Positions 1 through 18,299 of a stretch of DNA of 44,762 nt are shown here, piece by piece (position 1 is the stretch's first letter; every line of letters starts with the position of its first letter). The stretch comes from Candidatus Omnitrophota bacterium (GTDB taxonomy: Bacteria > Omnitrophota > Gorgyraeia > 2-01-FULL-45-10), in the NCBI GenBank assembly GCA_017993955.1, contig JAGOLR010000007.1:1-44762 (forward strand). The letters run 5' to 3'. The translations under genes and the position numbers were made by a program. The notes below the pieces were generated by a model, which was not told where the DNA came from, searched no databases, and was given only the letters and a program-made list of their open reading frames with translations.

Positions 1-3000
1 CTGTATATCTCTTTCCTTTCCGGGTTAAGATCGCTCAAGACCGGTTTATCGACTGATTGGTAAAGTTTCGGGTCGACCCATTCCAATCTCTTCACCGCAT
101 CTATCGGGGCCATCCTGTATCTCTTTACATCCGTGCTCGTTCCGGGATCCAGATTTTCGACCGATATGATACCGCTATGCACAGAGACCGCGCAGTGCCG
201 CAAGGCGACATTTGCCATCTGGTCCGGCGGAACTACGTCGGCATAGACCAAAAGATCCTTCTCGTTATCTAAGCCGGCTCCGGCACCTATATAAGAAGTC
301 TGGCCGGATAACTTTACATAACGGTAAGTCGCATTCGCATCTACCAGAAAATATCCCGACCTTTCGGATTCGGATATAAGTTTCTTCGCCTTATAAGATT
401 CCGGCATATCTTCGTAACGATATATCATGAAAGATATATCCCGGCCCAGGTATATGCCCACAGGCCCCTCATAAGGCATACTGCGGTAGCTATCGCGGAG
501 GTCCAGTCTGTATTCATCTATGGTTCGCATATACATTTTAGGCATCTCGATATCCAGGAAAGATCCCGAGATCTCCAGCGCGCGGCCTATTTCCGGAGAG
601 ATATCGCAATACGCCGGGGTACCGTTCGTCGATTTAAGGTCCTTTACTGTAATCTGGTTACCATCGACTATCACATGCGCATGGTGCCTTGATACTTTGT
701 CGTCTTCTACGATTATACGATTCTCATCCCTGCGTCCGATAGTAACGAGATCTCTTTTTGCCTTATCGAACTGATAAACTATAGTCCAGTTTTTCTCATC
801 CACCAGCAAATAGTCGGTCGCTCGTAATAACGTCATTAGATTTTTAACCGAAGACGGCAGGTGAGACCGGTGGTATATGCCGAATGAGGAGCCTCCAATC
901 CCGAAATGGACCGGCCCGGTATACAAACGCGGTTCGCCGGTATTGGTGTCGTATGCCTTGGTCTTCTGCGGCCTCCAGCCAAGGACGCCTTTACGTAGCG
1001 CCAGTTTAAATATATCTACCGCCCAGTTACCGGCGCTATGCAATATAACTGTAAGGATAAAACTAAGAGATATTGCAGTAGTCACTCCTAAATACGACAG
1101 GACCGCAAAAGATATCACCCCTACTACGGAATAAAGAGACGGTAAAAATATCCTTTGGAAGATGCCTACGCCGGGTATGCCGGTATCTTGTGAGGCATGG
1201 AGCGCTACGAATATGACGCGCGACGCCAGATAGGATATTATGCCAAGGTCGCCTGGGATCAGCGCCAGGAAGAGGAACATTATAAACTCTTCTACCAAAG
1301 GTACATATAGATTCTCGGATAGTTCACGGGATAACCCCAGCCGGTCTATGAAAAATGTTCTAAGGAAGCTGAGATTACCTTTTGACGGCATGACAGGGCT
1401 CATAGATGATACCCCATACGGATTCGCGTTTTTATCTATCACATCCATGAGATCCAATATCGCCTTATTAACTGCCGCATCTGTTCTATATTTAGGGTCT
1501 TTGTTGTAGTCGTATAACGCGGTATGGGCCATAAGGCCGAACCTTCCATCCGCCACTTCATCTAGAGGGCGGCCTCCCTGGGTCAGGAGCCTCATATCCC
1601 AAAGCGCTGCCTGCAAATTTCTGACAGCGGCTTCTATCTCCGGCACCATCGGAGCGATATCGAGAAGCAATATTTGCGCCTGCGGACCTTCTATGGGTTT
1701 AGTAAAATCGATGCCGGCAAGTTGCTGCAATTTAGCTCTTAATTCGTCCGATTGCGCCGGGCGGTATGGAATCTCTTGCGACATTGGAAATAGTTTATTC
1801 GGTGAAGGATATGCTATTGTATTGGCCATATCACGAATAAAAGGACTGTCCCCGCCGGAGGATTTTGCAGGCGCTTTACTCTTATCAGGCTCCGGCTTAA
1901 CTGTCATAACAGGAGAAGGTTTAGCAGCAGGCGAGGCTACTTCTGCATTTTTAGGCAAATTAAAATAAACTGTCAGGATGATAAGCGCTATGGATATTAT
2001 AGCGATCGCAGGCCTTACGGCCTTCCTTAACGTATAAGCTAACCGCATATTCAGATTATACGCGATGAGTCCTAGAACCCTATTAACAGGGTTCTGCAAT
2101 ATTACTAATTTGACCGTAGCCTGCTTTGCGGGACTTAATGGAGCTGATCCTGGGGGTGCGAAGGGCGGGGGAATGCCCCAGATAGTATATGAACCTGGCG
2201 TAACCGGTTTAGCCGGTGCGACAGGAGCCGGCGGTTTAACGCTCGCCGGGACCGAGGAAGATGAAATGCCGTCGGCTCCAGCGGTGGAAGACAGGCCAAG
2301 CCAGTTAATACTGGCGGGATCCGCAAGTATTTCTTGGCGGATATCAAAGGCGATCTTTTTTAAATTCTCCTTCTTCTCCTCAGCTGTCGGGAATTTACCA
2401 TCGTCTAATAATGCCTCCAGGATCTGAGAAGCGTTCCATAACCTGTCGTTAAACTTACCGTTCGGCCTTGCCTCTATACCCAGGCGCCTAGACATGATCT
2501 CTACTATTACCCTGTTGCAATTATAATATATCTGCATGAATGCAAATGGCACCGGCCCTTCGATATAGAGATCCAGTATCTTCATAAGATCGGTGAATGC
2601 GCTGTCAAACTGATCCTCTTCGACCTGCCTTCCATCTTGCATATCGGTGTACCGGAACGGCACCTTTTCCGTGTAATTCCCCGAAGGCCCTTCTGCCGTA
2701 CCGCGCCATATCGAAGCAAGATACGCCAGAGACTCGGTCTCTATCCTGTTCATCCTGCCCCGCGGAGTGGTCGATTCATATATAGTGTGATCCATCTCGT
2801 GTGTGGCAGTGGAGTTCTCTCTGGTCTGCAGTATTTTCGCCAGGATATCCTGGTCCGAGATATCCACGGCGCCGTAATCTACGGTCAATGCCCGGGTTAT
2901 GAGGGCATTTATCCTGTGGGCACCCGTCTGCCGGCCCATTAGCCTCGGGAGCGTCCTACTATACAGGTCCATCTGTATCATATCCGAAACGACGACACCG

Positions 3001-6000
3001 TGTTTCTCGCCCAGATATGTAAACCCGAGCGCTTCTATGTCCTTATTTATCAGATCGATCCTATCTCCCAAATAATAGATGGGCAGCATGCCGACTTCCG
3101 AATATACAAAGCGGCGGCTCTTTATCGTGTAGCTCGTCATCGAAAGGAAAGAACAGTCTATGACCCGCTCGCCGTCTTTTACTTTCCTTGTTATGGATTC
3201 TATCGCTATATGGACATTATTCGTAATGGAATACTCACACTGTCGTATATTGTCGAATAAAGTGCTACCGATACTACCGACATCGGCCGCGGCATCTGCC
3301 AATTGCCCGAAAAGGCTTTTAAATTCATATGCATCCGCGCCAAATACATCCATGCCTAGATCGTCTTTGACCTCTAATGCTGAGATCAATAAATTTTTTA
3401 TCTCGTTAAATCTACGGTCGGCAAGTTCCGCCTGGCCGGCAGTTGAGCCCGCACGCATAGCAAGTGCCTTCTGGGCGGTCACTATAGATAACGCCACAAG
3501 GTACTTGGCCAGGATATCTCTCGAAAATATAACTAATTTTTCATACTCTGTAAGCCCTCCCACTTTAAGGCTATCTATACCGCGTTCCATGGCCTCCAGA
3601 GCCGGCTCATATCCGCTGTCGTTCAATATGTATACTCTTTCGCGCTCCGCCGCTGAACCATATACAGAGTTATGTGGAAATGCTCCTGAAACCTCTACTT
3701 CGGGCTCTTCATTATATCCGTAAGTAGAATCCGATATCTCTGGAGCCGGGCGCTTCTCTCTTTCTACTAGAGTTCCCAGCACTACGGTCTTTTTCGATGA
3801 AACAGCTATAGCGGGTGTGGGTGTTACTGATATGGATACCGCCGATGTAGCCGGCGCAACCGTTATGGCCGGTGTGGGCCTCATAAAATTCTCGGCGGTC
3901 GTGGCAAAATTATCAAAGCCTCCGGTCTTTTTGGTATTCTCTGTCAAATATCTGGCCAATCTTTTTGCTATACCGTTAACCTCATCCCATTCTCTTGTGC
4001 CGGATCCCGCTATGGCAAAGATCGCCTCTCGTATAAAATAGGCTATATCTTTACTCCCCAAGGTAAAACGGTCCCGGTCCGTATTAAAAAGCACCATATC
4101 GCCGGTCTCGAGCTTTGAAGACAATGCCTTAGCTACGGTGCCGCCTTCAAAGACGCTTCCTCTCAAGGCCTCGGCGAGGTCCTCTCCCGTAACGACCAGC
4201 CTGTCATGCCAGACAGGGGTCTTCTTCAGTAAATTAGCTACTTGTTTTGCGCGACCCAGTTCCGGCACTCCGGCCTGGCGGAGGAATTTGTATACGGAGT
4301 TCCTCAGGACTTTAAATTGGAGTAAGTTTTCGGTTGCCTCCCCCGGCTTTTTTAGTTCCAGGGCTTTATAATGCGCGAAAAGATATTCCGCGGCATACTG
4401 TATGACATCTTCTTCCTTGCTGTAATTCGCAAGATAATTTCTAAAGACGATATTTTTCAGGATATAATCGAACCCGTCTTTTGCCAACGTATCTCTGAAT
4501 AAGTCGTAAAAAGCCTTTCTAGCGGATAAATACAGGATGCCGTTCTCATATAACGCCATCGCCTCGGCCGAATCGACTATCTTTATAGCGTCCAACTTTA
4601 AACCCCACATATTGAACATGGTTCGCATACGCTGTGTTTCTCTATGATCCCGGATATAGCCATGATCTTCTATTACGGCACCCGAGGCCACGCTAGATCT
4701 CATGGCATCGGCCTGGATGCCGCGTATCTGCGCGGTCAGCGCTGTGTCGAGATCACCGAAGGCATGCCACTGCAGGGCCCTTAGCAGATAATGCGAGCGC
4801 ATGTTATCGGTAACGCCGAATGCCGGAAGACGCGATAACATGGTATCCAGCTTTTCCGGAGACCGGTTTCGCATATAATTTTCCATCTTTCTTGCAAGAC
4901 CGGGATTATTTTCCAGGACCAGGTGGGCGAGTTCGTGAAAACGCGCTATGGGGTTACTGTATATATCCTTACTAAGCGCCCTTAATGGTATACCGCCGGG
5001 AGCGTCGCGTAATATCGCTATACCTGAGAAGTCTGATACCGACAATGCGCTTCCTTGAGGCAGAACCACTTCTTCTATTATGATATCGTTAAGGCCAGGG
5101 TTGGCCTTCAGGAATTTCCTTATCTCGTCGTCGAGCCATTTTAACTCCGGACGGGTCCTGGCGATCTTCGCGACATTGGCATACCTTTCATCTGGCGGGG
5201 CCCTGCTTCCGCGTATTATAACCTCTTCCTCGCTAAATCTGCCCATTCTTCGCGCCACGGCTATTATCTCTACTTTATTATCTGCTCCAGGAATATCCCG
5301 AATCTCCCTTATTCCCACATAATCGACCTTCCCTATGGAAGAACTTGCCGGCCCAGCCCTATCAGGCGACGAGGAAGGCCTTTCCCAGGAAAGGGCTTTC
5401 TCATGTAACTCAGGTAGCAGTGTTATCAGATCGAGCGCTTTTCTGGCATTGGGTTCAAACGTAGATATGCTCTTAAGCGTGTCGGCTGGCAACCTGAAAA
5501 AATCCGCCATATCAAACATATCATGAGTAACGCTATCCTCTTGGCCGTAATCCCTCATCTTCATGGTGATTATGGCTGGGTCCACATTTCCGACGAACAT
5601 AAGTTGTAGCATCTCTTTTAAGCGTTCTTCATAAGCAAGAGAACTGCGCGCCAAAATCTTCCGTTGCATGGACATATTCTTTTTAATATCCGCGGCGGCC
5701 TTTCTGTCTAAATGTATTTTTATATTATTTCGTACCAGGGACCCGATATCCGCAGCCTCGCCGGCAGAGACAGCGCTAGCCTTGAGGTCTTGTATTATGT
5801 ATTCCCTCATTAAAGCCATAAGGCTTTCGGCAGGCATCAATCCCGTTTTATTAAAAATACTTTCTGGGAAATATTCATCATATGCCCCAAAGACGAAATA
5901 TGCGTTCTTGAGGATGCCTGGATCTTTCAGATGAGAGGCTATCCAATTTATCTCGTCACGCATCACGCTGCCGGCCCTAACCTGCCTTCCGTCTTCAATG

Positions 6001-9000
6001 ATACTGCCATCCCTTAAATCGGAAGGGACGAAAACTATTATCGGTTTACCTGTAGCGATGATGCCATTAAGAAATTTCGCTGTGTGGTCGCTCTCTACGG
6101 GGTCGATTCCCATCTCTGAATAGGCGATATCCCAATCTGCCAATCCGAAAACTTCTGAAAAAGTTCTATACATTTCCCGGAGATTTGTGATCCCTAGGCT
6201 GTACCCGCCCTCCATTCGCCCGATATTTTCCTTTAAAAATTCGCGAAAACTGAAGACGCCGGCAGACCTCTCTCTCAATTCCCTGACTAATTCTTCGACA
6301 TTTGATATGTTTTGCCCTTCAAACGATCTTAACATATCGCTCTTCTCGACCATCTCGAGGATAGCTTTGTCGCCCACATCTTTTGATGCAGCGCGTGTTT
6401 GCATAAGCCCGGCAGCCGCGGTCCCGGCGGTATCCGCCGGTCCGAACGCCGAGCGGCCCAGCTCCCTTTCTCTCCAAAGGCGCTCTAAAACCTTCCTCGC
6501 ATCCTCATCACCCGCGAATTGGGCATCCAGTCCCATGCTCGCTATATGCCGGGTAATGCCGGAATACCCCATCTGTATCCCCACTGCCTCGGCCAATTCA
6601 TGTATAAGAATAGCTTTGGATATAATCGCCGCGTCAGTTTCCGGTAAATTATTTCTCCTTAGATTGCTCTTGATGGCCTCCGGGCTTATGTAGACCGTCT
6701 TGCCATCTCTCGCTCCTTCGGTACTACTGATATCGAACTCCTTACCGAGAGTATCGTCTCTTTTTACAGTAACCTCTATTTTCGTTATGGAGCCGTCTTC
6801 TTTTGTTATATTAAATGAACGCTTTACCGACCCGCGTTCAGGCACGGATAATTCCTCTCTATCATTCTCTGCAATGATCGCCCTCTCAAGGATACCCGCT
6901 TGGCGGTAATCCGCCCCTCCGTGAAATTCTGAAGGGCTGACTCCGAAAAATCCTATCTCCAGCACTCTTTCCGCAAGACCTTCCGGTTTGGACGCTCGAT
7001 ATATTTCCATTAATTCCGATAATGCCGCTTTTAAATCGGCATTTTTTATACGGCTATAAAAAGACGCTGTTTCATATATATCCTTGTACGATGCCGCCCC
7101 ATTCGCGATACGGTTATATACGGGATCCGATAGCGGTACGATCGTCGATTCATTTATTGCATTTAAATTTTTGTTATCCTGAATTTTGGGAAGACCGGCC
7201 TCCGCTACCGACATATCAGGAATGATCAGACTAAAAGTATTTATACCGGCAGCTCCCGTAGCTTTGAAAGCTTCCAATAAATGACCGGCATGTAACGCTC
7301 CGGAGTCTGAGGCTTCGCCCAGTTCAAGCAATGCGTCCGGGATCGCGTCGCCATAACCAAGTCCACCGGGAGCAGCTACAGAAAAGACGTAAGGTAATTG
7401 TTCTCTGGTAGCTCCCGAATTCAGCATCTGCCACAAAACTCCCTCATAATTAAAATCGTAAGAATAGCATGCGCCAGTCATTAACTTTGGCCTGGGAGCG
7501 CCGGGAAACCGTCTATACCTTTCCATAAATGCCTCTGCCAATTCCAGGTCACTTATAAAAACACCGGAACTAAGTGCAATGCCATTTTTCAATCCATGCC
7601 CTCGAAATACTACGGTTAAAGGACCGGGCGAAGCTTTTATGGCCTCTAATGCTTCGCTCTTTTTCGCGCCACCCTGAAACGATCTAATGTCTCTTTCATC
7701 GACACCGTAGCCCACCTCTTCCTTTTTCATTGCATCAACGTCAAACATATTTTCAGCCTCGGGCTCGTGAACTATATTAATAACGGTAATGCCGGGGGCG
7801 AAAAATGGCTCGCCCGCGACAGCATCCCTGGCATCCATAACGCGGCGTATCATATCCTCTATGGCCCTGCCGGATATCTCTATCTTTCTATTCACAAGAT
7901 TATGGTATACGGCCATAGCTATCGAATACCTGACCTGAGGCGTCAAACCCCTATCTTTTACTATCTTGTCCAGATATTCATGTGTATATACTTCATAGTT
8001 AGCCCAAGAATGGGATGAAAGCGGTGAATCTTTTGGAAAAGATGATAATAGCTCTATGAAAGGATCGGGTGCCTTCAGGGTACCTGCGTCCTTATATGAC
8101 CTCAATGCGTCTGAAACCAATCCGTATATTGAGGGTGCGTAGCCTTCATCTAATATAATTTTTTTCATCATCTCAACAAGCGTATCCGTAGATCCGGCAA
8201 TAGAACCATGATCTTCCGCGGCGTTTAAAAGCGGCGCCATTACATGACTTGCGCTATGAGCTTTAAATGCGCCGCTTTCTATATACCCGGCTATACCCGC
8301 TATCACATGCCTGGACAGATCTTCTTTAGCTTTTGAGGTTTCGGCATCTACGGCGGCTATGCCTCCGTATTTCGGGGCCATCTGGTACAAAGCGATAACG
8401 ACATCCAGGAATAGGCCCTCATCGCCCCCTTTCTCGGATAAAAGCTTGAATAAATAATCTACTTGATCCGCGCTTACCAGTTCCTGGTATGTGCCGTCCG
8501 ACAAAATCCGGTACGGATCTGTGGATCTTTTAAAGAGATATCCTATGCTCTTAACTATTAACCTTGCCGTTGAAAGATCCGGTTCCTTTATACCGGACTG
8601 AAATTCTCCTATAAATTTATTCAATTCCCGGATGGCTTCGGGACTAGCCTTGCCTATCTCTATAAGATTCCTGGCCGCGGCATCTCTATCTACAAAAGAT
8701 CGGTTTACGTCAGCCATTATACCAGCCATGCCCGGGATGGCTTCTTGCGCGCCTGCGTAATCGTTTATAGATAAAGAAGATAACGGCGAACTTTGCTCTG
8801 TAGCTGTAGAGGTAATAGAGTATGATGGCGGATTAACTAACCGCGGATTTTTCGGACCCAAATCGTTAAAATAGGTGGCTAGCATAAACACTAATACGCT
8901 TATCCCTATCACGCCGGAGGCCAGGACCCGGAAGAGCGTCTTATTTATCGCGCCGGCATTACCAGGGAGACTCGGGGAGGGCGCCTCAGGGGCTTCCTGC

Positions 9001-12000: not shown

Positions 12001-15000
12001 GAAAGATAATCTGATATCTCGGGCAGGCTCTTGCCGGTTATGTCACCGCTGGCACTTATGACCCTGTTATTGTTCCAGAGTGCGCGGATATGATCGATCG
12101 ATTCCTGCGTTGAGAACCATGGTTGTAATCTCCCCTTCGAAAGCGCGGCAAATTTTCTTAAATATTCTTGATGTCCCTCGCTTTCAAAAAAGTTAAAATA
12201 ATTTTCCAATACACGTTCGATCAGATGCTCTTTCGATATGCCTTTAGTTATGACCCCCAGCTCATCGTCGTCAGGTCTGATATCAACGATTGAATCGCTC
12301 ACATAATCCTTTATCGCGGCGGTGAGAATACGGACTGTTTCGTTTTCGAGAGTCATGTCATACGGTTTTTTTAGCAGGTAATCGATGACATCCTGGATGG
12401 ACGCATTCTTTAACGCCCACCGCTCCCGGATGCTAACGCGGCGTGACAATATCCGGGCTATTATCTTTATACGGTCTTTCTCTCTCGATATCAGGACCCC
12501 CATAGCCGGATATATGATATCCGTGACCGCTGCATTTATATCCATATTAACGATCTGGCTTGCGTTTGCGGCTGAAGCAAGTGAATCGGTAGCCCCGAGA
12601 CCGACCGAAATAAGAGCCCCGGCGTTATTGACAAGGCTCTCATCCAGCGACGGGTATTTCGCCAGGTCCTCGTTCGTAACCGGGAATACGCCCCCTAGCG
12701 TGGTAAGTCCTTTAATTCCACCGGTTGTGGCATATATATTCAAAATAGTCTCTTCGCGGGTCGACAGTTTTTCCAGTGTCCCATAGTAGGCTCCTATCCA
12801 TCGCGATTCGGGCGGTTGGAACATCCCTCGAACTATACGTTTCAATGGATTTTCTCGATCTGTGGTTTTAGTCACGGGTGCGGGTTGTGTGGGCTGGGTA
12901 AGGTCGGCGAGATCCGAAACATCTTCCGAGCGGCGCATCAGGGATTTCACGTGTTCCGGGTATTTCTTTATCATGGCCCCATTTTTTATCCCGAGGACCA
13001 GACCTTCTATTATCTTTTCTTCTACATCCTCTATGGCCCGCACAGATACCCTGCTGGCCCCAACATCGGCAATCCCCTCGTCAGGGCCCAGCCATTTGCC
13101 TTCTACGAAAGGTAGCGCCTTTTCCACTTCGCTGTCAAATAACGCGGCATCCTTCAGGTTTAAAGCCGCCAGCCCTATATACGCATGCATCAGCTCGTGC
13201 ATGAGGTTATCATTCCAGGCCAATGATACGCTAGCACTAGCTATGGTAGAGAGGATAAATACTCCCGCGGCCATCAACCTTATAAGATCGTATACCCCTC
13301 CGAAATGTAACTGCAGTAATATCACCGCCATGGCCAGAGGAAGAAGGGGCGTAGTCTTGCCCGGTAGATATATATTTACCGAGTCCCCATATTCTCCCAG
13401 TAGAGGCCCCGTCATATAAGGGCTGCGATACAGGAATATAGCCGACATGAACGCCCCTACCGAATCAAACATGCCTTTTGCAAGTTCGGGTATAACGGTA
13501 AAGGCGTTAAGGGTGCGGCGGCTATATTCGTTTATACCTTGGTCGAAACATAATTTTTTAACATGCTCCTCAAACTTCAGGACATCGATGGTATTCTGGC
13601 CGGAAAAATCCGGACGCATTTCATAAAGAATATCCCGCGACCGCTCGACCTCCACTCCCCTTAAAAAGTCTTCATTTACCAGGTAATTACTCAACGTATA
13701 CAGGCTGGATATGCTGAGCCCGTATTCATTTGCCATCTCGTTCATGAATTCGACGTCAAGCCAGAAATCTTCGGCTGCCAGCCCTGCCTCATGGCGCAGT
13801 TCGTGGGCAATGCCGGATATAAATATCGTTCTGGCCAGATCCGGATTATTGGCCTTCAGGGCGCGACCGGCAAGCTCCTGAAAATCCCTGTTTATGCCGA
13901 TGAAGGCGTTGTCTTTGCAGTCTTCAAACATATACCGGGAGGCGTCTTGATCAAGTAGGGCTATAAGGGTTTTCTTAGAGGTGATCTCGGAAATCGGTAT
14001 GCCCCAGCGACCGAGCTGAGATAGGGCCTTTGATAAAAGCGCGCCGACCTCGCCATCAGTAGCAAACCCGAGGGCCTTTCTGATATCACTCAATTCATCC
14101 GCCGTCATCTGGAACGCTTCTATGGCGCGGCCCGACTCATCCACCACCCCGGGTATATTTATACGGGCTGCCTCGGGTCTTGCGAGCTTTTCCGTCTCGG
14201 CGTCTACTTCCCTACGTGTCATGCCGGTCGCGAGTCCCTTTAGCTCGAAGGCTTCGAAATGCATGGGTTCGGAGATGCCCTGGATACCTTGTGGCGCCAG
14301 ACTGCGCATCTGCGCGCTATCAGCCGGCTGTTCTCTCGCGGGGGATCCATCTAAAGATCTTGGTATTACACCTATATAAACCGATTTCATTCTCGATACG
14401 TCTAAAACCCCTGGGAATCTGGCCAGTCTGTCATCATCAGGAGATAACTTACCCGCCTGCACAGCTGCGAAGTATCTCTCCATAATAGCTGGGCCTACCG
14501 CTTGACCTTTGGAAGAAGGCTTTTCAACCGTATCCATGCCTATATAAAGACCGCCGAATTGCTTGGATATAACTGATATCGACTTTATCACCGCCATTGG
14601 AGCTATGCCGCGACCGCGCAGGCTCTGCCCCCCTTCCGGCGCCTTACTATCAAGATAAGATTCTTTGCCTATCGATATGTGTTTAACATAAAGAAAGCGG
14701 TTGGCGTCAAATATCTTGAAATCTATAAGAAACTCGAACATCCCCAATGTAACGGGTTTTGTAAGATCCGTCGTAAGGCTGTCGAGATGCGATCTTATAT
14801 TAGCTGCCGTATCTATAGCTATGCAATACCAGGGTCCGGATCTTTCGGACCTCTCCAGAGCTATAGCTACGAAGTCATTATCGCCGTAATTGCCAAGTTG
14901 CGACACCAATTCCGAACGTAATGTCTGGCCGTCGCCTATGGCGGCTATAACGGGAACATCCCGGTCCCCGTTAAATTTTTTGTATGCCCCCAGCAATAGC

Positions 15001-18000
15001 TTCGGCACAAGCGATCTTAGCTCTTCTAGCGGAATGGCCGTTTGTAATGGGACTACATTCTCTGCCTTCTTAACATCTGTGGCAGCCTCCCGAGGAGGAG
15101 ATCTTAAAGGACTTCTGGCAAGATTTGACATACGCCATTTTGTGAAGAATAATTCACCTAAAGCCCCGATAAGGATAGAGATGGCCGCTGGGAAAATCCC
15201 AAAACTTCCGAATAAAGACACAAAAAGCGCCGCGACACTAATACCGATTGCAAGCGGTGCAGTATAAAGGTATACTGCGGGGGATAAAGGCTTTCTGGCT
15301 ATTATATTTACAGCGGGCGTAGTCCGCCCGACATCCCATCTCTTCGGTATGCGGATGGCCACCTCCCTCACTATCTCAAAACCCGCGGCCTCAAGCATAT
15401 TTCTGTATTGGGCAATGGTCAGATGGACCGACGGAAATTCTAAAGAAACCTCGCCTCGCCTTATCATGTCTAAAAGCGTATCTATATTATCTCCATAATT
15501 TTCATAATCGAAGAAGCTCCCGTCCGAACGCGGCAGGACCATGATGGGCTGACTTCCAGGCATCTCCCCCAAAAGTGTCAGGAGGCTCTGATATTCCGGT
15601 CGTCCTTCCCGCGCAAGGCGTTCCGTAAGTTTACGGCTCACATCATATCGTCTTTGCACAGTCGCTCCATCCGCCTCAAGATCTTCCGGCAGTACAACGG
15701 CAAAATCAAGTAGCGAAAACAGGCCGCCCGGCTTTAAAGAGCTGTAAATGGAATTAAGCACTCTCTTTTGTTTTGCGGGATCCGTTATGGTAGTTAGGGT
15801 CCTGTGAAGAACTGCGGCATCGGCAATATTTTCGGATAACCCCGCGTCTGCGATATCGGCCCTTTTAAACCCAGCCCACGGAGAATCGGAAGAAGCCCCC
15901 GCCGATACGGTGTTATTATCGCTGAGATCCGAAGAGACGGCGACTGAAACCCCCGCCCCCATTATTGGCGCTAAATTGGCTTCAAGGAAAGGGTCCTGGT
16001 CCAGGGCAAGGACGTTTGCCATACCTTCTTCTACAAGGACTTTTTCGTGCTGCCCGCGGCCGGCGCCAAAATCTATTACGAATTGACGTCTACCGGTATC
16101 GCCATATCGCATCCTTAAGCTCTCTATAAGTAATATAGGCGCTGAAGCCATATCTGAAGCCGTAGGTTCGTTAAGCAATACACCTACACCGGGAGTGCCT
16201 CCGGTAGATGGCGAAGAGATGGGCGCTATGGGGGATTTCCCTGTGGCTATCTCGTTACGCAGACCGTCCAAAGATATGATCTCAAATCCCGACGAACCCG
16301 CGGAAAGGCCGTTCACGATATTGCCTTCCGGGCTTATGCCGCGGAATTGCCCCTTACTTGTCTCAACCATTATGCCCTTGCCCTCCCGGGACAGCTGGCG
16401 CCACCTGGCAAGGAGCTCAAAGAGAAGGCGGCTGTCTTTACCGTAGACTTCATAACCCATATCGCTCAATATGCTCGCAATGGCCAGAGAATTGGCCATA
16501 ACGTTCTTAATGTTGCCCACGACTGTACAGGTCTTGCCGGACAGAAGCCTGAAATAAGGGCATTGGTAACCATTATCGTTCCTGAAGTTGGGCATTATGG
16601 AGATATAAGAGACGCCTTCTTTTTTGAACAGTTCGCAGAGGTTCTCGGTATGGAATCCGCCGGTGATCACGATAGCGGCATTTGCGTTCATCGTTGATCG
16701 TTTATCGTTCATTGTTTTTTCTTTTACGATAGACGATGAACGATGAACGATAGACGAACTTATATTCTTAACGAACACCTCATCGCGCTCAAACGAGTAG
16801 TCATAAAACTTCTCTATCTGCGAACGATATTTATCGAGACTGGCGAGGTCTCCGTTAAAGTTCGGGGATATCTTATACTTGGGGGCTTCCTTCTTTATGA
16901 AGTCCATATAATGGCGAATATCGAAATCCGTCCTCTTTTTGACATAATAACTGTAGTCGTCTTTAGTGATGGAGATGTTGAATATATTCTTAAGGAGGGT
17001 CAGGTCCTTGGAAAGACCGCTCAAGGTCTTCTGTATGTCATTCTCGTATAAAGAGACCTTCACCAGCTCCTCCAGCGACGATACCTCATCCATGATCGCG
17101 GATTTTTCTATCGCATCGTACGTGGATATGTAAACGATGAATTTCTGAAGATCGGGATACAGGGCCAGATCCTCGCCAACCGACCGGGCCTTTTTGGTAA
17201 GATAGGAATAAAAATCTTTTTGGGATAAGCGCTCGGCCCTGTACTCTACCGTCTTTGTCACAAGCTCTTCCAGCTCTTTTTGAGACAGGTTCTTCTGGAG
17301 AGCGTCTATCAGCCTTTCGCGCTCGGTGTTGGCGCGCTTGAAATCTATGCCGCTCTCCAAAGCAAGAGACTGGTTCAGGAGTATGATGTTTTTAAATCCT
17401 GACATATCCACGGCGCGTTCACGGGCTTTCGATACAAGATACGAAAGATAGTCCTTAAATTCCAGATTGTTGGCCTTATAGGCAGAGTATTTCATGTCGA
17501 ATTCCAGGAGGGAGGGCGAATATATGTTAGGTTTAAGGCTATTCAAAGTCAGGGAGAGCGACTTCAAGGCGCGGTCTATCTCATCTTTGTTCTTTAGGGA
17601 TTCTCTGTATGTATTAAGGTTGGCCATATACAACTTGGGATCTTCAAGACCATGGAGCACCACCTTGCCGGTATTATTGGACGCGAAATATTCTGCGCCG
17701 CCCACAAGACCTTCTTTGACAAAATAATCTGATACTTGCTCCCGAACGTTCTTGTCTTGGATCTTGGCAAAGATAGACAGATCGTAGTTACCGGCACCCC
17801 CTTCCAGGTTTACCGACTCTATGCCGTATTCTTTATGGAGGTATCCTACTATATCGGCGATCTTGTGCTGCGCGGCATAGTTACAATGGGCGTCCTGGAT
17901 ATGGATCACGACCCGGTCATTGCGAGGGAGCCCCGAAGGGGCGACCGAAGCAATCTCTTTATCGTCTAGAGATTGCTTCGTCGTCGCTCCGCTCCTCCTC

Positions 18001-18299
18001 GCAATGACGGCGGAGGACGACCACGAGTCACGCACCATGCCCAGGTACTCCGGTAATCGGAACGTCTCTACATTAAGTTCTTTAAAAGAAGAACCTGTGC
18101 CGCCAGGCCCCATAGAACCCGCGCGAGTGGGTTCCAAGGGCTCTTTGGCGGCCCAGGCTTTATTATCAAATAATATATCGGTAAACACTATATTAAATAA
18201 AAAGGACCACAAAGTGACAAGACACACCATCACTTTAAGTGGCCCTTTTCGGAACCGTTGTTCCAAGGTTATATGGCTATTAGGTCTCGCGCTTTCCAT
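1..18299 (-). CDS. Giant multi-domain membrane protein with several protease modules (C-terminus outside window)
   Basis: A single frame runs from an ATG at 18299 to the window edge without a stop, at least 6,099 residues. An in-frame TAG lies two codons upstream of the ATG, so the start cannot move far upstream. Codon phase was checked at recognisable motifs (near 17888, 16073, 13805, 13199, 9488, 7598, 6602, 5315, 4937, 2801, 2048, 1292 and 623) and is the same throughout, so this is one gene and not a chain of frames. Residue 1 is at 18299 and residue n at about 18299-3(n-1). Modules are listed as separate entries: signal region, ChaN/Tiki-like, methyltransferase, zincin sites, kinase-like, caspase-like, CPBP and FHA. 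Pro/Ser/Ala-rich linkers (residues about 5337-5403) and hydrophobic hairpins separate them. Such size is known for Omnitrophota, but the overall function is unknown. The soluble modules probably act at the envelope, since the chain begins with an export signal; that is inference. Confidence 0.9.
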   Translation of the reverse strand, partial: MESARPNSHITLEQRFRKGPLKVMVCLVTLWSFLFNIVFTDILFDNKAWAAKEPLEPTRAGSMGPGGTGSSFKELNVETFRLPEYLGMVRDSWSSSAVIARRSGATTKQSLDDKEIASVAPSGLPRNDRVVIHIQDAHCNYAAQHKIADIVGYLHKEYGIESVNLEGGAGNYDLSIFAKIQDKNVREQVSDYFVKEGLVGGAEYFASNNTGKVVLHGLEDPKLYMANLNTYRESLKNKDEIDRALKSLSLTLNSLKPNIYSPSLLEFDMKYSAYKANNLEFKDYLSYLVSKARERAVDMSGFKNIILLNQSLALESGIDFKRANTERERLIDALQKNLSQKELEELVTKTVEYRAERLSQKDFYSYLTKKARSVGEDLALYPDLQKFIVYISTYDAIEKSAIMDEVSSLEELVKVSLYENDIQKTLSGLSKDLTLLKNIFNISITKDDYSYYVKKRTDFDIRHYMDFIKKEAPKYKISPNFNGDLASLDKYRSQIEKFYDYSFERDEVFVKNISSSIVHRSSSIVKEKTMNDKRSTMNANAAIVITGGFHTENLCELFKKEGVSYISIMPNFRNDNGYQCPYFRLLSGKTCTVVGNIKNVMANSLAIASILSDMGYEVYGKDSRLLFELLARWRQLSREGKGIMVETSKGQFRGISPEGNIVNGLSAGSSGFEIISLDGLRNEIATGKSPIAPISSPSTGGTPGVGVLLNEPTASDMASAPILLIESLRMRYGDTGRRQFVIDFGAGRGQHEKVLVEEGMANVLALDQDPFLEANLAPIMGAGVSVAVSSDLSDNNTVSAGASSDSPWAGFKRADIADAGLSENIADAAVLHRTLTTITDPAKQKRVLNSIYSSLKPGGLFSLLDFAVVLPEDLEADGATVQRRYDVSRKLTERLAREGRPEYQSLLTLLGEMPGSQPIMVLPRSDGSFFDYENYGDNIDTLLDMIRRGEVSLEFPSVHLTIAQYRNMLEAAGFEIVREVAIRIPKRWDVGRTTPAVNIIARKPLSPAVYLYTAPLAIGISVAALFVSLFGSFGIFPAAISILIGALGELFFTKWRMSNLARSPLRSPPREAATDVKKAENVVPLQTAIPLEELRSLVPKLLLGAYKKFNGDRDVPVIAAIGDGQTLRSELVSQLGNYGDNDFVAIALERSERSGPWYCIAIDTAANIRSHLDSLTTDLTKPVTLGMFEFLIDFKIFDANRFLYVKHISIGKESYLDSKAPEGGQSLRGRGIAPMAVIKSISVISKQFGGLYIGMDTVEKPSSKGQAVGPAIMERYFAAVQAGKLSPDDDRLARFPGVLDVSRMKSVYIGVIPRSLDGSPAREQPADSAQMRSLAPQGIQGISEPMHFEAFELKGLATGMTRREVDAETEKLARPEAARINIPGVVDESGRAIEAFQMTADELSDIRKALGFATDGEVGALLSKALSQLGRWGIPISEITSKKTLIALLDQDASRYMFEDCKDNAFIGINRDFQELAGRALKANNPDLARTIFISGIAHELRHEAGLAAEDFWLDVEFMNEMANEYGLSISSLYTLSNYLVNEDFLRGVEVERSRDILYEMRPDFSGQNTIDVLKFEEHVKKLCFDQGINEYSRRTLNAFTVIPELAKGMFDSVGAFMSAIFLYRSPYMTGPLLGEYGDSVNIYLPGKTTPLLPLAMAVILLQLHFGGVYDLIRLMAAGVFILSTIASASVSLAWNDNLMHELMHAYIGLAALNLKDAALFDSEVEKALPFVEGKWLGPDEGIADVGASRVSVRAIEDVEEKIIEGLVLGIKNGAMIKKYPEHVKSLMRRSEDVSDLADLTQPTQPAPVTKTTDRENPLKRIVRGMFQPPESRWIGAYYGTLEKLSTREETILNIYATTGGIKGLTTLGGVFPVTNEDLAKYPSLDESLVNNAGALISVGLGATDSLASAANASQIVNMDINAAVTDIIYPAMGVLISREKDRIKIIARILSRRVSIRERWALKNASIQDVIDYLLKKPYDMTLENETVRILTAAIKDYVSDSIVDIRPDDDELGVITKGISKEHLIERVLENYFNFFESEGHQEYLRKFAALSKGRLQPWFSTQESIDHIRALWNNNRVISASGDITGKSLPEISDYLSRHGTPVKLVYVSNIPQWKAADVAADENKAAIAMRDRLAANLPFSSDAQMLWSSIRGPGAERYEALALVTTPVMAAPDAPAAESVPAMGSTGRVAPFKIDLPGLFLSAVPYDGSSNPETRGERIDRILLELQRSGAALDSDYAEALLRRVEFWQQEVVREWLETVDLPRAMIGRGRTMHVYEITLGGTPVIVKIPSSDDDSVLNKVRYSYENGMKKLGGIMPVLVVENVKFKNKRAPVDFVIIQPKITRLVDMRATGASEESLDRGYAEVRDRMKDRGVTDNDPNADTNYGVNDSGQVVPMDPELFEIDKKSPDLWAAAPIPPYFANAVSSGLDNIVYGFIREDTLVVEAIRSKLKEYFKNKSTISVINETELANLADALYFVKVTSARMITAQTDFAREDQLRRRFSEEAARRGISVPADVVGDLVAMDVRASVPAAPEPSLPGNAGAIDKKLFQVLGATIAIGLILAPIVMWFEPNIAGLMMNINLADFGQHSALFAALPFMGGMVTGSGSAGSQIDEDEGFNNYEDEIFRPIDNEQSLPLSKLFNISDTEAFIRIPVATISFLLGFIGYLLPTMISYTNVELWPASVFAGAVIILTIWIGGSLTLGYIIGEALFWGQILPYLLIRGVPFALDFIKLTIVGVILLPFSVIELIMNPAPKEELKFDINQRLYNGLRGSSKAMPERAGGTFAIDKTDVKKALKSYLAGVPLIISSFYFVSLLQHYALPIMAVWAALPFVYLVIMRIAKEMTPVSGEIKDIAASRAGELMKNLRITDTDGRALTPARQDEIIADIKRSLLYLYDRNAGGAVGWSLRRWGYAIYINEEAKDKATLNLILDHELVHFLRLKYGYIKYDIPTAEIYSNLRAISETGIDLSKLSDGLIGYGMKLFDEVKDPVERNRRAADHAKEVAGKNLSGDNPHEPLYTYNLGIIQAGVIVRCSEDLLSDYRDIYGTPESTGGIPSSLTEERVRLFLIEKLANGGNSEEQRGYIAPFVSGVDIAQEAPEAPSPSLPGNAGAINKTLFRVLASGVIGISVLVFMLATYFNDLGPKNPRLVNPPSYSITSTATEQSSPLSSLSINDYAGAQEAIPGMAGIMADVNRSFVDRDAAARNLIEIGKASPEAIRELNKFIGEFQSGIKEPDLSTARLIVKSIGYLFKRSTDPYRILSDGTYQELVSADQVDYLFKLLSEKGGDEGLFLDVVIALYQMAPKYGGIAAVDAETSKAKEDLSRHVIAGIAGYIESGAFKAHSASHVMAPLLNAAEDHGSIAGSTDTLVEMMKKIILDEGYAPSIYGLVSDALRSYKDAGTLKAPDPFIELLSSFPKDSPLSSHSWANYEVYTHEYLDKIVKDRGLTPQVRYSIAMAVYHNLVNRKIEISGRAIEDMIRRVMDARDAVAGEPFFAPGITVINIVHEPEAENMFDVDAMKKEEVGYGVDERDIRSFQGGAKKSEALEAIKASPGPLTVVFRGHGLKNGIALSSGVFISDLELAEAFMERYRRFPGAPRPKLMTGACYSYDFNYEGVLWQMLNSGATREQLPYVFSVAAPGGLGYGDAIPDALLELGEASDSGALHAGHLLEAFKATGAAGINTFSLIIPDMSVAEAGLPKIQDNKNLNAINESTIVPLSDPVYNRIANGAASYKDIYETASFYSRIKNADLKAALSELMEIYRASKPEGLAERVLEIGFFGVSPSEFHGGADYRQAGILERAIIAENDREELSVPERGSVKRSFNITKEDGSITKIEVTVKRDDTLGKEFDISSTEGARDGKTVYISPEAIKSNLRRNNLPETDAAIISKAILIHELAEAVGIQMGYSGITRHIASMGLDAQFAGDEDARKVLERLWRERELGRSAFGPADTAGTAAAGLMQTRAASKDVGDKAILEMVEKSDMLRSFEGQNISNVEELVRELRERSAGVFSFREFLKENIGRMEGGYSLGITNLREMYRTFSEVFGLADWDIAYSEMGIDPVESDHTAKFLNGIIATGKPIIVFVPSDLRDGSIIEDGRQVRAGSVMRDEINWIASHLKDPGILKNAYFVFGAYDEYFPESIFNKTGLMPAESLMALMREYIIQDLKASAVSAGEAADIGSLVRNNIKIHLDRKAAADIKKNMSMQRKILARSSLAYEERLKEMLQLMFVGNVDPAIITMKMRDYGQEDSVTHDMFDMADFFRLPADTLKSISTFEPNARKALDLITLLPELHEKALSWERPSSSPDRAGPASSSIGKVDYVGIREIRDIPGADNKVEIIAVARRMGRFSEEEVIIRGSRAPPDERYANVAKIARTRPELKWLDDEIRKFLKANPGLNDIIIEEVVLPQGSALSVSDFSGIAILRDAPGGIPLRALSKDIYSNPIARFHELAHLVLENNPGLARKMENYMRNRSPEKLDTMLSRLPAFGVTDNMRSHYLLRALQWHAFGDLDTALTAQIRGIQADAMRSSVASGAVIEDHGYIRDHRETQRMRTMFNMWGLKLDAIKIVDSAEAMALYENGILYLSARKAFYDLFRDTLAKDGFDYILKNIVFRNYLANYSKEEDVIQYAAEYLFAHYKALELKKPGEATENLLQFKVLRNSVYKFLRQAGVPELGRAKQVANLLKKTPVWHDRLVVTGEDLAEALRGSVFEGGTVAKALSSKLETGDMVLFNTDRDRFTLGSKDIAYFIREAIFAIAGSGTREWDEVNGIAKRLARYLTENTKKTGGFDNFATTAENFMRPTPAITVAPATSAVSISVTPTPAIAVSSKKTVVLGTLVEREKRPAPEISDSTYGYNEEPEVEVSGAFPHNSVYGSAAERERVYILNDSGYEPALEAMERGIDSLKVGGLTEYEKLVIFSRDILAKYLVALSIVTAQKALAMRAGSTAGQAELADRRFNEIKNLLISALEVKDDLGMDVFGADAYEFKSLFGQLADAAADVGSIGSTLFDNIRQCEYSITNNVHIAIESITRKVKDGERVIDCSFLSMTSYTIKSRRFVYSEVGMLPIYYLGDRIDLINKDIEALGFTYLGEKHGVVVSDMIQMDLYSRTLPRLMGRQTGAHRINALITRALTVDYGAVDISDQDILAKILQTRENSTATHEMDHTIYESTTPRGRMNRIETESLAYLASIWRGTAEGPSGNYTEKVPFRYTDMQDGRQVEEDQFDSAFTDLMKILDLYIEGPVPFAFMQIYYNCNRVIVEIMSRRLGIEARPNGKFNDRLWNASQILEALLDDGKFPTAEEKKENLKKIAFDIRQEILADPASINWLGLSSTAGADGISSSSVPASVKPPAPVAPAKPVTPGSYTIWGIPPPFAPPGSAPLSPAKQATVKLVILQNPVNRVLGLIAYNLNMRLAYTLRKAVRPAIAIISIALIILTVYFNLPKNAEVASPAAKPSPVMTVKPEPDKSKAPAKSSGGDSPFIRDMANTIAYPSPNKLFPMSQEIPYRPAQSDELRAKLQQLAGIDFTKPIEGPQAQILLLDIAPMVPEIEAAVRNLQAALWDMRLLTQGGRPLDEVADGRFGLMAHTALYDYNKDPKYRTDAAVNKAILDLMDVIDKNANPYGVSSMSPVMPSKGNLSFLRTFFIDRLGLSRELSENLYVPLVEEFIMFLFLALIPGDLGIISYLASRVIFVALHASQDTGIPGVGIFQRIFLPSLYSVVGVISFAVLSYLGVTTAISLSFILTVILHSAGNWAVDIFKLALRKGVLGWRPQKTKAYDTNTGEPRLYTGPVHFGIGGSSFGIYHRSHLPSSVKNLMTLLRATDYLLVDEKNWTIVYQFDKAKRDLVTIGRRDENRIIVEDDKVSRHHAHVIVDGNQITVKDLKSTNGTPAYCDISPEIGRALEISGSFLDIEMPKMYMRTIDEYRLDLRDSYRSMPYEGPVGIYLGRDISFMIYRYEDMPESYKAKKLISESERSGYFLVDANATYRYVKLSGQTSYIGAGAGLDNEKDLLVYADVVPPDQMANVALRHCAVSVHSGIISVENLDPGTSTDVKRYRMAPIDAVKRLEWVDPKLYQSVDKPVLSDLNPERKEIY
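100..340 (-). other. Second, degenerate FHA-like domain
   Basis: Residues about 5987-6067 repeat the FHA layout: YIGAGAGLDNEKDL, then NVALRHCAVSVHSG, then VENLDPGTST. The Arg and Asn-Gly positions are weak, so it may be a non-binding FHA fold. The giant protein continues past the window edge after it. Confidence 0.45.
585..820 (-). other. FHA phosphothreonine-binding domain
   Basis: Residues about 5827-5905. The sequence TIGRRDENRII, then SRHHAHVIV (S5870, R5871, H5872, H5873) and STNGT (N5892, G5893) reproduces the conserved Gly-Arg, Ser-x-x-His and Asn-Gly positions of forkhead-associated domains, which bind phosphothreonine peptides. It directly follows the intramembrane protease, suggesting regulated recruitment; that link is inference. 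Confidence 0.85.
1000..1330 (-). other. CPBP-type (CAAX/Abi) intramembrane protease domain
   Basis: Hydrophobic segments carry the three family motifs in order: PLVEEFIMF (E5670 E5671), VIFVALHAS (H5701) and ILHSAGN (H5754, N5758). This matches the EE...H...HxxxN layout of CPBP glutamic intramembrane proteases, which cleave membrane-embedded substrates. An earlier membrane segment (near 1980-2040) precedes it. Confidence 0.7.
2600..3020 (-). other. Zincin-like site E (HEMDH) in the giant protein
   Basis: ENSTATHEMDHTIYES carries H5167, E5168 and H5171. About 17 residues on, RIETESLAYLASIW offers a Glu on a helix as third ligand, the classic gluzincin spacing. The preceding 150 residues contain short strands (FVYSEVGMLPIYYLG) that may form the N-terminal sheet. 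Confidence 0.6.
4780..5340 (-). other. Zincin-like site D (HELAH) in the giant protein
   Basis: Residues about 4320-4507. Strands (KVEIIAVARRMG, DIIIEEVVLPQG, SGIAILRDAPGG) lead to IARFHELAHLVLENNPG with H4455, E4456 and H4459. A mixed alpha/beta domain ending in an HExxH helix is typical of gluzincin folds. A long helical region of unknown function follows (about 4380-4780). Confidence 0.55.
6400..6780 (-). other. Metallopeptidase-like helix with HELAEA (HExxE variant)
   Basis: ISKAILIHELAEAVGIQMGY contains H3900, E3901 and a Glu where the second zincin His is expected. The surrounding layout (preceding Tyr-rich strand, downstream acidic helix) resembles the other zincin sites in this protein. 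It could use an alternative ligand set or be inactive. Confidence 0.35.
7320..7810 (-). other. Caspase-like (clan CD) peptidase module in the giant protein
   Basis: Residues about 3497-3660. A hydrophobic strand ends in VVFRGHGLKNG (His3568, HG motif). A helix follows (SDLELAEAFMERYR), then a second strand and LMTGACYSYDF with Cys3611 after a small residue. Strand-HisGly, helix, strand-AlaCys at this spacing is the signature of caspase, gingipain and CHAT-type peptidases. A helical-repeat stretch precedes it (8000-8700). Confidence 0.6.
8919..8988 (-). repeat. Internal repeat copy 2: Pro-Ser-Leu-Pro-Gly linker plus membrane segment
   Basis: Second copy of the PSLPGNAGAI junction motif seen at 10624-10690, again followed by a hydrophobic segment (VIGISVLVFMLA). 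The two copies flank the polytopic block and HELVH site, as if that module had been added by duplication and shuffling. Confidence 0.75.
9400..10420 (-). other. Polytopic membrane block followed by zincin-like site C (HELVH)
   Basis: About five to seven hydrophobic segments lie between 9760 and 10420 (for example VATISFLLGFIGYLL, LILTIWIGGSLTLGYIIG, VGVILLPFSVIEL and LPIMAVWAALPFVYLVIM). The helix LILDHELVHFLRLKYG (H2938, E2939, H2942) follows. HExxH after a membrane block, with a downstream Asp/Glu-rich helix, resembles a membrane-tethered metallopeptidase module. Confidence 0.55.
10624..10690 (-). repeat. Internal repeat copy 1: Pro-Ser-Leu-Pro-Gly linker plus membrane segment
   Basis: This stretch encodes a PSLPGNAGAI motif followed by a Lys, LF and VL and then a transmembrane segment. 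It is repeated at 8919-8988, 1,707 bp (569 codons) away, with most bases identical. The duplicated unit is the junction between a soluble module and the next membrane anchor. Confidence 0.75.
11050..11550 (-). other. Kinase-like region of the giant protein (tentative)
   Basis: Residues about 2250-2415. A Gly-rich turn (MIGRGRTMHVYEI) is followed by a strand with lysine (TPVIVKIP), a hinge-like strand (VDFVIIQPKI) and, after a helical stretch, DPNADTNYGV and GQVVPMDPELFE. The order glycine loop, Lys, catalytic-loop-like Asn, metal-binding-like Asp mimics protein-kinase or aminoglycoside-phosphotransferase folds. Key residues are not all canonical, so it may be a pseudokinase or unrelated. Confidence 0.35.
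11780..12160 (-). other. Possible second methyltransferase-like module
   Basis: Residues about 2047-2170 include VISASGDITG, a helix with ISDYLSRHG, and a strand VKLVYVSNIPQW. The spacing of an xGDxTG strand, a helix and a YxSNxxxW/Y motif recalls SAM-binding proteins of the LIC_10091 type. This is a motif impression only. Confidence 0.3.
13050..13400 (-). other. Zincin-like site B (HELMH) next to two membrane segments
   Basis: Two hydrophobic segments (PLLPLAMAVILLQL and LMAAGVFILSTIASASV, at about 13220-13380) precede LMHELMHAYIG with H1701, E1702 and H1705. About 35 residues later comes GPDEGIAD, whose Glu is a plausible third zinc ligand. This resembles membrane-associated gluzincins with the active site close to the bilayer. 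Confidence 0.55.
13560..13880 (-). other. Zincin-like site A (HELRHE) in the giant protein
   Basis: A helix ISGIAHELRHEAGL carries H1499-E-L-R-H1503-E, the HExxHE pattern of zinc metallopeptidases. Downstream acidic helices (DFWLDVEFMNE) could give the third ligand. The preceding strand NPDLARTIFIS fits the edge-strand-then-helix layout. Activity cannot be judged from sequence alone. Confidence 0.5.
15145..15280 (-). other. Membrane hairpin following the methyltransferase
   Basis: Residues about 1008-1052 contain two closely spaced hydrophobic segments (LAIGISVAALFVSLFG and FPAAISILIGALGELFF) with a short Gly/Phe turn, followed by basic KWRM. This is the first clear transmembrane pair after the signal region. 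Confidence 0.65.
15345..16136 (-). other. Class I SAM-dependent methyltransferase domain within the giant protein
   Basis: Residues about 722-985. Motif I reads VIDFGAGRG (Asp743 to Gly749). It is followed by an acidic end of strand 2 (LALDQDPF), a strand-4 region (ADAAVLHRTL) and SSLKPGGLFSLLDF, the usual post-II/III motif. The order fits a complete Rossmann-type methyltransferase fold. The substrate is unknown. A SAM enzyme on a chain that begins with an export signal is odd and may be non-catalytic or cytoplasmically oriented. Confidence 0.75.
16575..17912 (-). other. ChaN/Tiki-like region of the giant protein (tentative)
   Basis: Residues about 130-575. The block opens with a beta-strand motif VIHIQDAHCNY (His133, Asp136, His138) followed by an amphipathic helix and ESVNLEGGAG. 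It ends with a hydrophobic strand and ITGGFHT (His550). A start motif with Asp/His and Glu plus a late GGFHT strand is reminiscent of the ChaN/Tiki (TraB-like, EreA-like) superfamily. The middle is a long helical insertion. The assignment rests on motif layout only. Confidence 0.4.
16686..16759 (-). repeat. Imperfect inverted repeat of tandem CGATGAACG-type units inside the giant gene
   Basis: Two arms (16686-16713 and 16726-16759) made of repeating variants of cgttcatcg/cgtttatcg are inverted relative to each other around an A/T-rich loop. In the protein this reads as a low-complexity Ser/Arg/Met stretch (about residues 514-538) immediately before the GGFHT strand. The frame is maintained. 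It looks like a second repeat insertion tolerated within the coding sequence. Confidence 0.65.
17916..18008 (-). repeat. 93-bp palindromic repeat inserted in frame in the giant gene
   Basis: The termini are inverted copies of about 12 bp (GTCATTGCGAGG at one end, its complement at the other). An inner inverted pair (GAAGCAATCTCT / AGAGATTGCTTC) brackets a short loop, so the element can fold into a long hairpin. It is exactly 31 codons and starts on a codon boundary, so it adds residues 98-128 without breaking the frame. Elements with these TCATTGCGAGG-type ends are common intergenic repeats in many bacterial genomes. An in-gene copy recalls the Rickettsia palindromic elements. It sits in the spacer between the export signal and the first folded domain. 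Confidence 0.85.
18165..18299 (-). other. N-terminal signal peptide or signal anchor of the giant protein
   Basis: Residues 1-20 are polar and basic (two Arg and a Lys close to the core). A hydrophobic stretch (residues about 21-40, VMVCLVTLWSFLF) follows, then a small-residue site (KAWAA, about residue 45) that could be cut by signal peptidase. This places the remaining chain outside the cytoplasm, or anchored with the bulk outside. Seen: charge and hydrophobicity pattern. Inferred: export. Confidence 0.6.

Follow-up and report, generated by a model that had tools for sequence, protein, structure and literature searches.

A giant Omnitrophota protein in which a Tiki-like head and a short C-terminal tail enclose a shuffled middle of enzyme-like modules

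MARTX toxins carry RTX repeats at both ends as well as an autoprocessing cysteine protease, and some of them include a domain of the Tiki family (RRSP). In the Omnitrophota, giant open reading frames (ORFs) have already been published: the portion of Seymour et al. (2023, PMC10066038) drawn on here describes ORFs of > 20 kb with several membrane helices, few annotated domains and poor conservation, portrays the phylum as host-dependent, and reports that peptides of one giant are raised in attached cells; predation and adhesion were proposed as functions, with an adhesin or coat protein suggested for Velamenicoccus. Here we analyse a giant frame on contig JAGOLR010000007.1 of a Candidatus Omnitrophota bacterium (class Gorgyraeia; assembly GCA_017993955.1), of which the stretch from position 1 to 44,762 is referred to as the window. 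Like the published giants, this frame stems from the Omnitrophota, exceeds 20 kb (25.8 kb when joined to its likely continuation) and encodes several hydrophobic regions. Unlike those giants, for which the consulted portion of that paper emphasizes adhesins and reports no shared head or tail, it has enzyme-like modules bracketed by a Tiki-like head and a C-terminal tail. Genome comparison strongly supports a phylum-wide family of this architecture, i.e. a constant head and tail around a shuffled, poorly conserved middle. As far as searched, the shared head and tail are new: no earlier report was found in the published papers searched, preprints lying outside the search.

An earlier sequence-only reading had described a single ORF of more than 6,099 codons, and this was borne out. 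On the minus strand, which also carries all other window features given below, positions 3..18299 encode residues 1-6099 and contain neither an internal stop nor an N; at a GC content of 48%, the frame is still stop-free over 6,099 codons. It has no end within the window and runs off the contig (G000:C30, 50,106 bp) at base 1. The stop that this reading had suggested looking for likely lies on a second contig of the same genome, C17 (locus L034), which opens with a 2,500-codon open frame (plus strand, 2-7504) that ends at a stop codon. The two contigs probably represent one gene of 25.8 kb encoding 8,597 amino acids (aa), because the final nine bases of the window frame are the initial nine bases of C17 with the reading frame preserved, an FHA unit that spans the junction is completed by the first C17 residues and aligns with the unit before it (score 114, versus at most 51 after shuffling), the C17 end matches a family tail model that was built without C17 (E = 0.03), and the flanking genes are syntenic with a relative. 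Over 243 aa, the C17 end also shares 39% identity with the end of a frame in CP070780 that bears the head and is 2,473 aa long. Altogether, the C17 part adds 2,498 residues with two HExxH motifs, one HExxE motif, a third FHA unit and a histidine-kinase ATPase.

The N-terminus of the giant (residues 1-50; 18150..18299) resembles a signal peptide by eye and hydropathy, with a basic start, a hydrophobic core (21-39) and an 'AWA' cleavage-like site (48-50), and the N-termini of relatives finish in 'DIAWA'-type sequences; the export signal proposed earlier is plausible. It is followed by the head (residues 120-620; 16440..17942), previously read as a ChaN/Tiki-like region. The Tiki/EreA/ChaN superfamily is taken here from Sanchez-Pulido and Ponting (2013), as cited in PMC6254334; the portion of the latter paper used here names the structures 3b55 and 5t09 as members, and RRSP as a MARTX effector of this superfamily with a 2His/2Glu motif (E-x-H, E, H). 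Across 39 aligned heads, D136-x-H138, E166 and H550 are invariant and run in the same order as this motif, Asp replacing the first Glu. An AlphaFold model of the head from the 39 sequences was confident [predicted local distance difference test (pLDDT) 86]. None of its Foldseek matches, which bear on the core parallel beta-sheet fold of the superfamily, was significant (best E = 0.12) and the template modelling scores were low; rank 1 was 3b55, and superfamily members also occupied ranks 7 and 14 (both 2rad), 19 (EreC, 6xcq) and 20 (HopBA1, 5t09). The head of the window protein had no Pfam match at threshold, the gathering score of PF04187 included, while two of the 39 heads matched PF04187 weakly (best E = 0.006); a PDB sequence search with the head profile returned nothing useful. 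Because superfamily members hold the top Foldseek rank and several of the first twenty, and because the invariant residues follow the 2His/2Glu order, we file the head as Tiki-like; alignment and model together make superfamily membership likely, and the earlier Tiki/ChaN-like reading is well supported, with structural matches that are weak. The head departs from the superfamily in its first acidic residue (Asp), in a large helical insertion between strands, and in scoring below the Pfam threshold.

At the opposite end, the family shares a tail of ∼40 residues that ends at the stop codon and consists of a hydrophobic strand, the motif P-[IV]-[DN], a helix and a closing pair such as SL, AL, AA or SV. 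Among 52 frames that have both the head and a natural stop, 43 matched the tail model; of the 33 such frames that were absent from its training, 25 did. In leave-one-out tests, 14 of 26 training tails ranked first, C17 included; the signal is therefore real but weak for divergent members. An ending of the type [ASKNT][ALV], a pattern picked after the ends had been inspected, occurred in 47/52 head-bearing natural-stop frames versus 9/101 other frames. These tail counts refer to the frames examined, and the head count given below to a phylum-wide sample. Like PEP-CTERM and similar sorting signals, the tail is a brief conserved stretch at the C-terminus of exported proteins that are otherwise unrelated; unlike PEP-CTERM, it lacks a PEP motif, a membrane helix and a basic end, and no sorting-signal family was among the 25 best NCBIfam families listed for the C17 part.

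To what extent is this architecture shared? The head was present in 30 of the 38 genomes of a first search (own genome included). A phylum-wide sample of 117 genomes had it in 78, with copy numbers reaching about 20 in a single genome, and all 79 named head loci belong to Omnitrophota. Head-bearing frames span about 500 to 35,113 codons. In contrast to the head, residues 3001-5999 were matched in only six of the 38 genomes, again including the own genome, and the middle is almost unmatched even between genomes of the same taxonomic family. Its modules reappear in other giants in different contexts: the HELRH, HELAH and CPBP-like modules described below each recur in several, and the HEIQE, HEAVH and C-terminal modules of the C17 part recur as well. 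Relatives bear further domains (Pkinase, GNAT, SpoIIE, M48 and metallophosphatase), a paralogue on contig C110 has PPDK_N and PEP-utiliser domains, and single-module forms exist, among them one of 1,115 aa that comprises a signal peptide, a caspase-like module and the tail. Thus, the comparison across Omnitrophota that the sequence-only reading had called for found head and tail conserved and the middle shuffled; together with the rest of the gene on C17, this is the most important fact that lay beyond the view of that reading. The arrangement resembles polymorphic toxins, in which an immunity gene accompanies the toxin gene, in combining a conserved end, to which we would ascribe a role in trafficking, with swappable effector modules; it differs from them in that the variable part is central, the C-terminal tail is conserved and each chain has several effector-type modules.

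Several individual loci illustrate the range of forms. Heads of about 520-550 aa stand alone without cargo at G216:C111, G151:C3, G213:C66 and G028:C3:46421, and head-bearing frames of 35,113 and 23,964 codons occur outside the class of the present genome (G239:C37:183525-184973 and G229:C88). Contig G000:C108 (L036, L037) has three consecutive giants: two carry the head (1,891 and 5,635 aa), and the other, of ∼6,622 aa, has a tail-like end. On C110, a 683-aa protein composed of a methyltransferase domain and the tail (L035, 9397-11445) directly follows a head-bearing giant.

The frame had been proposed to string together at least four classes of protease modules. All six metal-site motifs counted at the time are present, namely five HExxH (HELRH 1499, HELMH 1701, HELVH 2938, HELAH 4455 and HEMDH 5167) and one HExxE (HELAE 3900). 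Shuffling the window protein 2,000 times at the same composition gave a mean of 0.06 and a maximum of two HExxH, compared with the five present; family-wide, the 166,798 residues after the head contain 50 HExxH versus 2.8 expected. The HELRH module (residues 1386-1549, motif 1499-1503; 13653..14144) retains HExxHE in most homologues, with a FED..N.FIGIN motif upstream. No homologue was found for the HELMH (1701-1705; 13185..13199) and HELVH (2938-2942; 9474..9488) motifs. The HELAE module (3865-3962; 6414..6707) keeps HExxE in one of two homologues, and the HEMDH module (4895-5198; 2706..3617) keeps HExxH and a downstream Glu in its homologue L202. Seven copies of the HELAH module (4318-4538; 4686..5348) were aligned: HE and HYxxR are invariant, and the fifth motif position is His or Glu in most. 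Compared with zincins, HYxxR in HELAH and the downstream Glu in HEMDH are candidate third ligands. In structure prediction, which had also been suggested, the HELAH module, the only HExxH module modelled, gave an AlphaFold model from the seven sequences (pLDDT 77) with no significant PDB fold match, and a PDB sequence search with its profile gave nothing useful.

Two further modules are of other putative protease types. A caspase-like (clan CD-like) module (residues 3487-3705; 7185..7841) has homologues in only two other genomes; both retain GHG (H3568) and [AS]C (C3611), so that the His/Cys pair read from the sequence is conserved, whereas no Pfam match was obtained at threshold. The autoprocessing protease of MARTX is a possible comparison, the module in the giant being without a profile match. 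CPBP intramembrane proteases have the motifs EExxxR, FxxxH and HxxxN/B. In the CPBP-like membrane module of the giant (5636-5784; 948..1394), EE, H and HxxxN are conserved; unlike in CPBP proteases, the Arg of EExxxR is absent from all copies seen, and Pfam gave no CPBP family match. Catalytic-type residues are lost in some module copies (HEVAV, HEIRY); most metal-site and His/Cys residues are retained at 25-40% identity. No Pfam, NCBIfam or PDB profile matched any of the protease-like modules. Collectively, the alignments suggest conserved, recurring modules that keep catalytic-type residues, which is the part of the four-class claim that held, the protease fold itself not being proven. Searches for other relationships, by Foldseek against viral structures and by PADLOC for defence systems, gave no significant match and no match respectively.

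Named domains accompany these modules, and Pfam confirmed the methyltransferase and the FHA domains that had been read from the sequence. The S-adenosylmethionine (SAM)-dependent methyltransferase module covers residues 735-870 (15690..16097; PF08241, E = 9.2e-6; PF13489, E = 2.2e-5), and FHA domain 1 covers residues 5840-5895 (615..782; PF00498, E = 3.2e-12); it is followed by FHA-like unit 2, recognized by repeat alignment (5943-6048; 156..473), and by unit 3 on C17 (Pfam E = 1.5e-8). A DUF7790-like region (1888-2119; 11943..12638; PF25046, E = 2.4e-14) has a homologue in L138, and a recurring unnamed module (3976-4207; 5679..6374) has homologues in three other genomes. Repeat comparison also revealed two copies of a linker plus membrane helix (SLPGNAGAI..; first copy 10578..10733, second copy 8868..9020) with 42-44% mutual identity. 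Apart from this linker repeat, neither cleavage sites nor conserved linkers were found in the giant. For the window frame, NCBIfam and PDB searches contributed only FHA and weak methyltransferase matches; no RTX family was found in Pfam and NCBIfam scans of the window and C17 parts, and the domain scans returned few adhesion or repeat domains. In addition to its histidine-kinase ATPase, the C17 part has a weak XopAK-like match (E = 5.5e-5), which may denote a deamidase, and a mid-protein Tat-like signal (TRRDFLKG; L034, about 3960-4040) ahead of the HEAVH module; a weaker Tat-like match stands at the corresponding place in L054 (3487-4329), a homologue from another genus. Hydropathy predicts about 15 hydrophobic regions in the joined protein.

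Just upstream of the giant lies a conserved neighbour, an RlmI-like 23S rRNA methyltransferase as judged by eye (18880..20061), and downstream, on C17, an ordinary-sized gene with homologues (L034, 8124-10007). In the relative G015, homologues of these upstream and downstream genes adjoin with 488 bases and no giant between them; therefore, the giant is embedded in an otherwise conserved gene order, through gain here or loss in G015. The NUDIX/RlmI-like block also adjoins tail-bearing giants or a 1,115-aa tail protein in G003, G002 and G007 (L238, L241, L074), and may be an insertion hotspot. Pieces of the C17 gene 8124-10007 are likewise found inside giants on G015:C13 and G000:C108, as if neighbour genes had been captured as modules. 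Elsewhere in the window, 37601-44760 carries two long minus-strand frames of 1,255 aa and at least 1,141 aa.

What does the giant protein do? Modules of the FHA, methyltransferase and histidine-kinase ATPase types normally operate in the cytosol. Because a signal peptide is here joined to enzymes that depend on ATP, SAM or phosphoproteins, cargo destined for the cytosol of another cell is the simplest account. Cytosol-type cargo, module shuffling and the host-dependence of the phylum (PMC10066038, in the portion consulted) lead us to propose, at roughly even odds, that the giant is an exported mosaic of several enzymes which acts on other cells, be they prey or host, in the manner of a multi-effector toxin. 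The signal peptide would take the chain across the inner membrane, the constant head and tail would serve export, anchoring or maturation, and the shuffled modules (HExxH, caspase-like, CPBP-like, methyltransferase, FHA, histidine-kinase ATPase and possibly the XopAK-like deamidase) would act on other cells as multi-effector cargo. We infer that the protein is delivered into other cells and that its modules are active as enzymes, and likewise any cleavage of the chain by itself. Of the three functions offered by the sequence-only reading, the predation or host-contact machine fits best. As in MARTX toxins, a very long secreted protein would combine several effector-type enzymes, export being predicted from the sequence in this case; unlike MARTX, the giant has a putative Sec-type signal peptide, places its Tiki-like domain at the N-terminus and shows no RTX repeats, and its delivery is presumed. 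Several points weigh against such a toxin-like role: neither a delivery system nor a target nor an activity has been demonstrated, no protease fold was confirmed by profile match or by the HELAH model, the tail is short and unevenly recognized (14/26 first), and, in a chain with about 15 hydrophobic stretches, the FHA, methyltransferase and kinase-type parts could work in the producer if kept in its cytosol. Going further, a dedicated Omnitrophota export and maturation route might recognize head and tail and deliver mosaic polyproteins of up to 35,000 residues into prey or host, a tentative and somewhat unlikely extension.

Compatible with a multi-effector role, the giant may be a self-processing polyprotein: once exported, its chain would be cut into free enzymes by the caspase-like domain or by the head, as happens in MARTX. 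Such processing is possible but on balance doubtful: the His/Cys pair is conserved in a clan CD-like context, the head is close to the Tiki family, which includes endopeptidases (PMC6254334, in the portion used), and single-module forms such as the 1,115-aa protein exist, yet the linker repeat is the sole candidate for a conserved linker and just two other genomes yielded homologues of the caspase-like module. We consider it unlikely that the giant is a membrane-threaded scaffold for the remodelling or quality control of the envelope of the producer itself, using proteolytic and FHA modules for signalling and turnover. The signal peptide, the many hydrophobic stretches and the CPBP-like membrane module would suit this role, and FHA and histidine-kinase ATPase modules typically take part in signalling within the cell that makes them; however, housekeeping scaffolds are usually conserved, while this middle is almost unmatched within a taxonomic family, and G015 has no giant at the corresponding locus. 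A role as adhesin or coat, like that suggested for Velamenicoccus, with enzyme-like modules that are mostly decayed spacers, has precedent in the published proposals (PMC10066038, same portion) and would agree with HEVAV, HEIRY and the missing CPBP Arg, but is improbable given the scarcity of adhesion or repeat domains and the retention of most metal-site and His/Cys residues. Finally, an assembly artefact or chance open frame, for which the position at a contig end and the few annotated domains might speak, is virtually ruled out by 6,099 stop-free codons at this GC content, by named domains in frame and by the same layout in many independent assemblies.

The head, found phylum-wide, and the tail, present on the majority of the head-bearing frames examined, provide a means to collect, classify and test the giants of Omnitrophota. 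If the proposed multi-effector function is true, these giants would rank with the largest known multi-effector proteins, and would offer a direct handle on how abundant, uncultured, host-dependent Omnitrophota attack or live on other cells.
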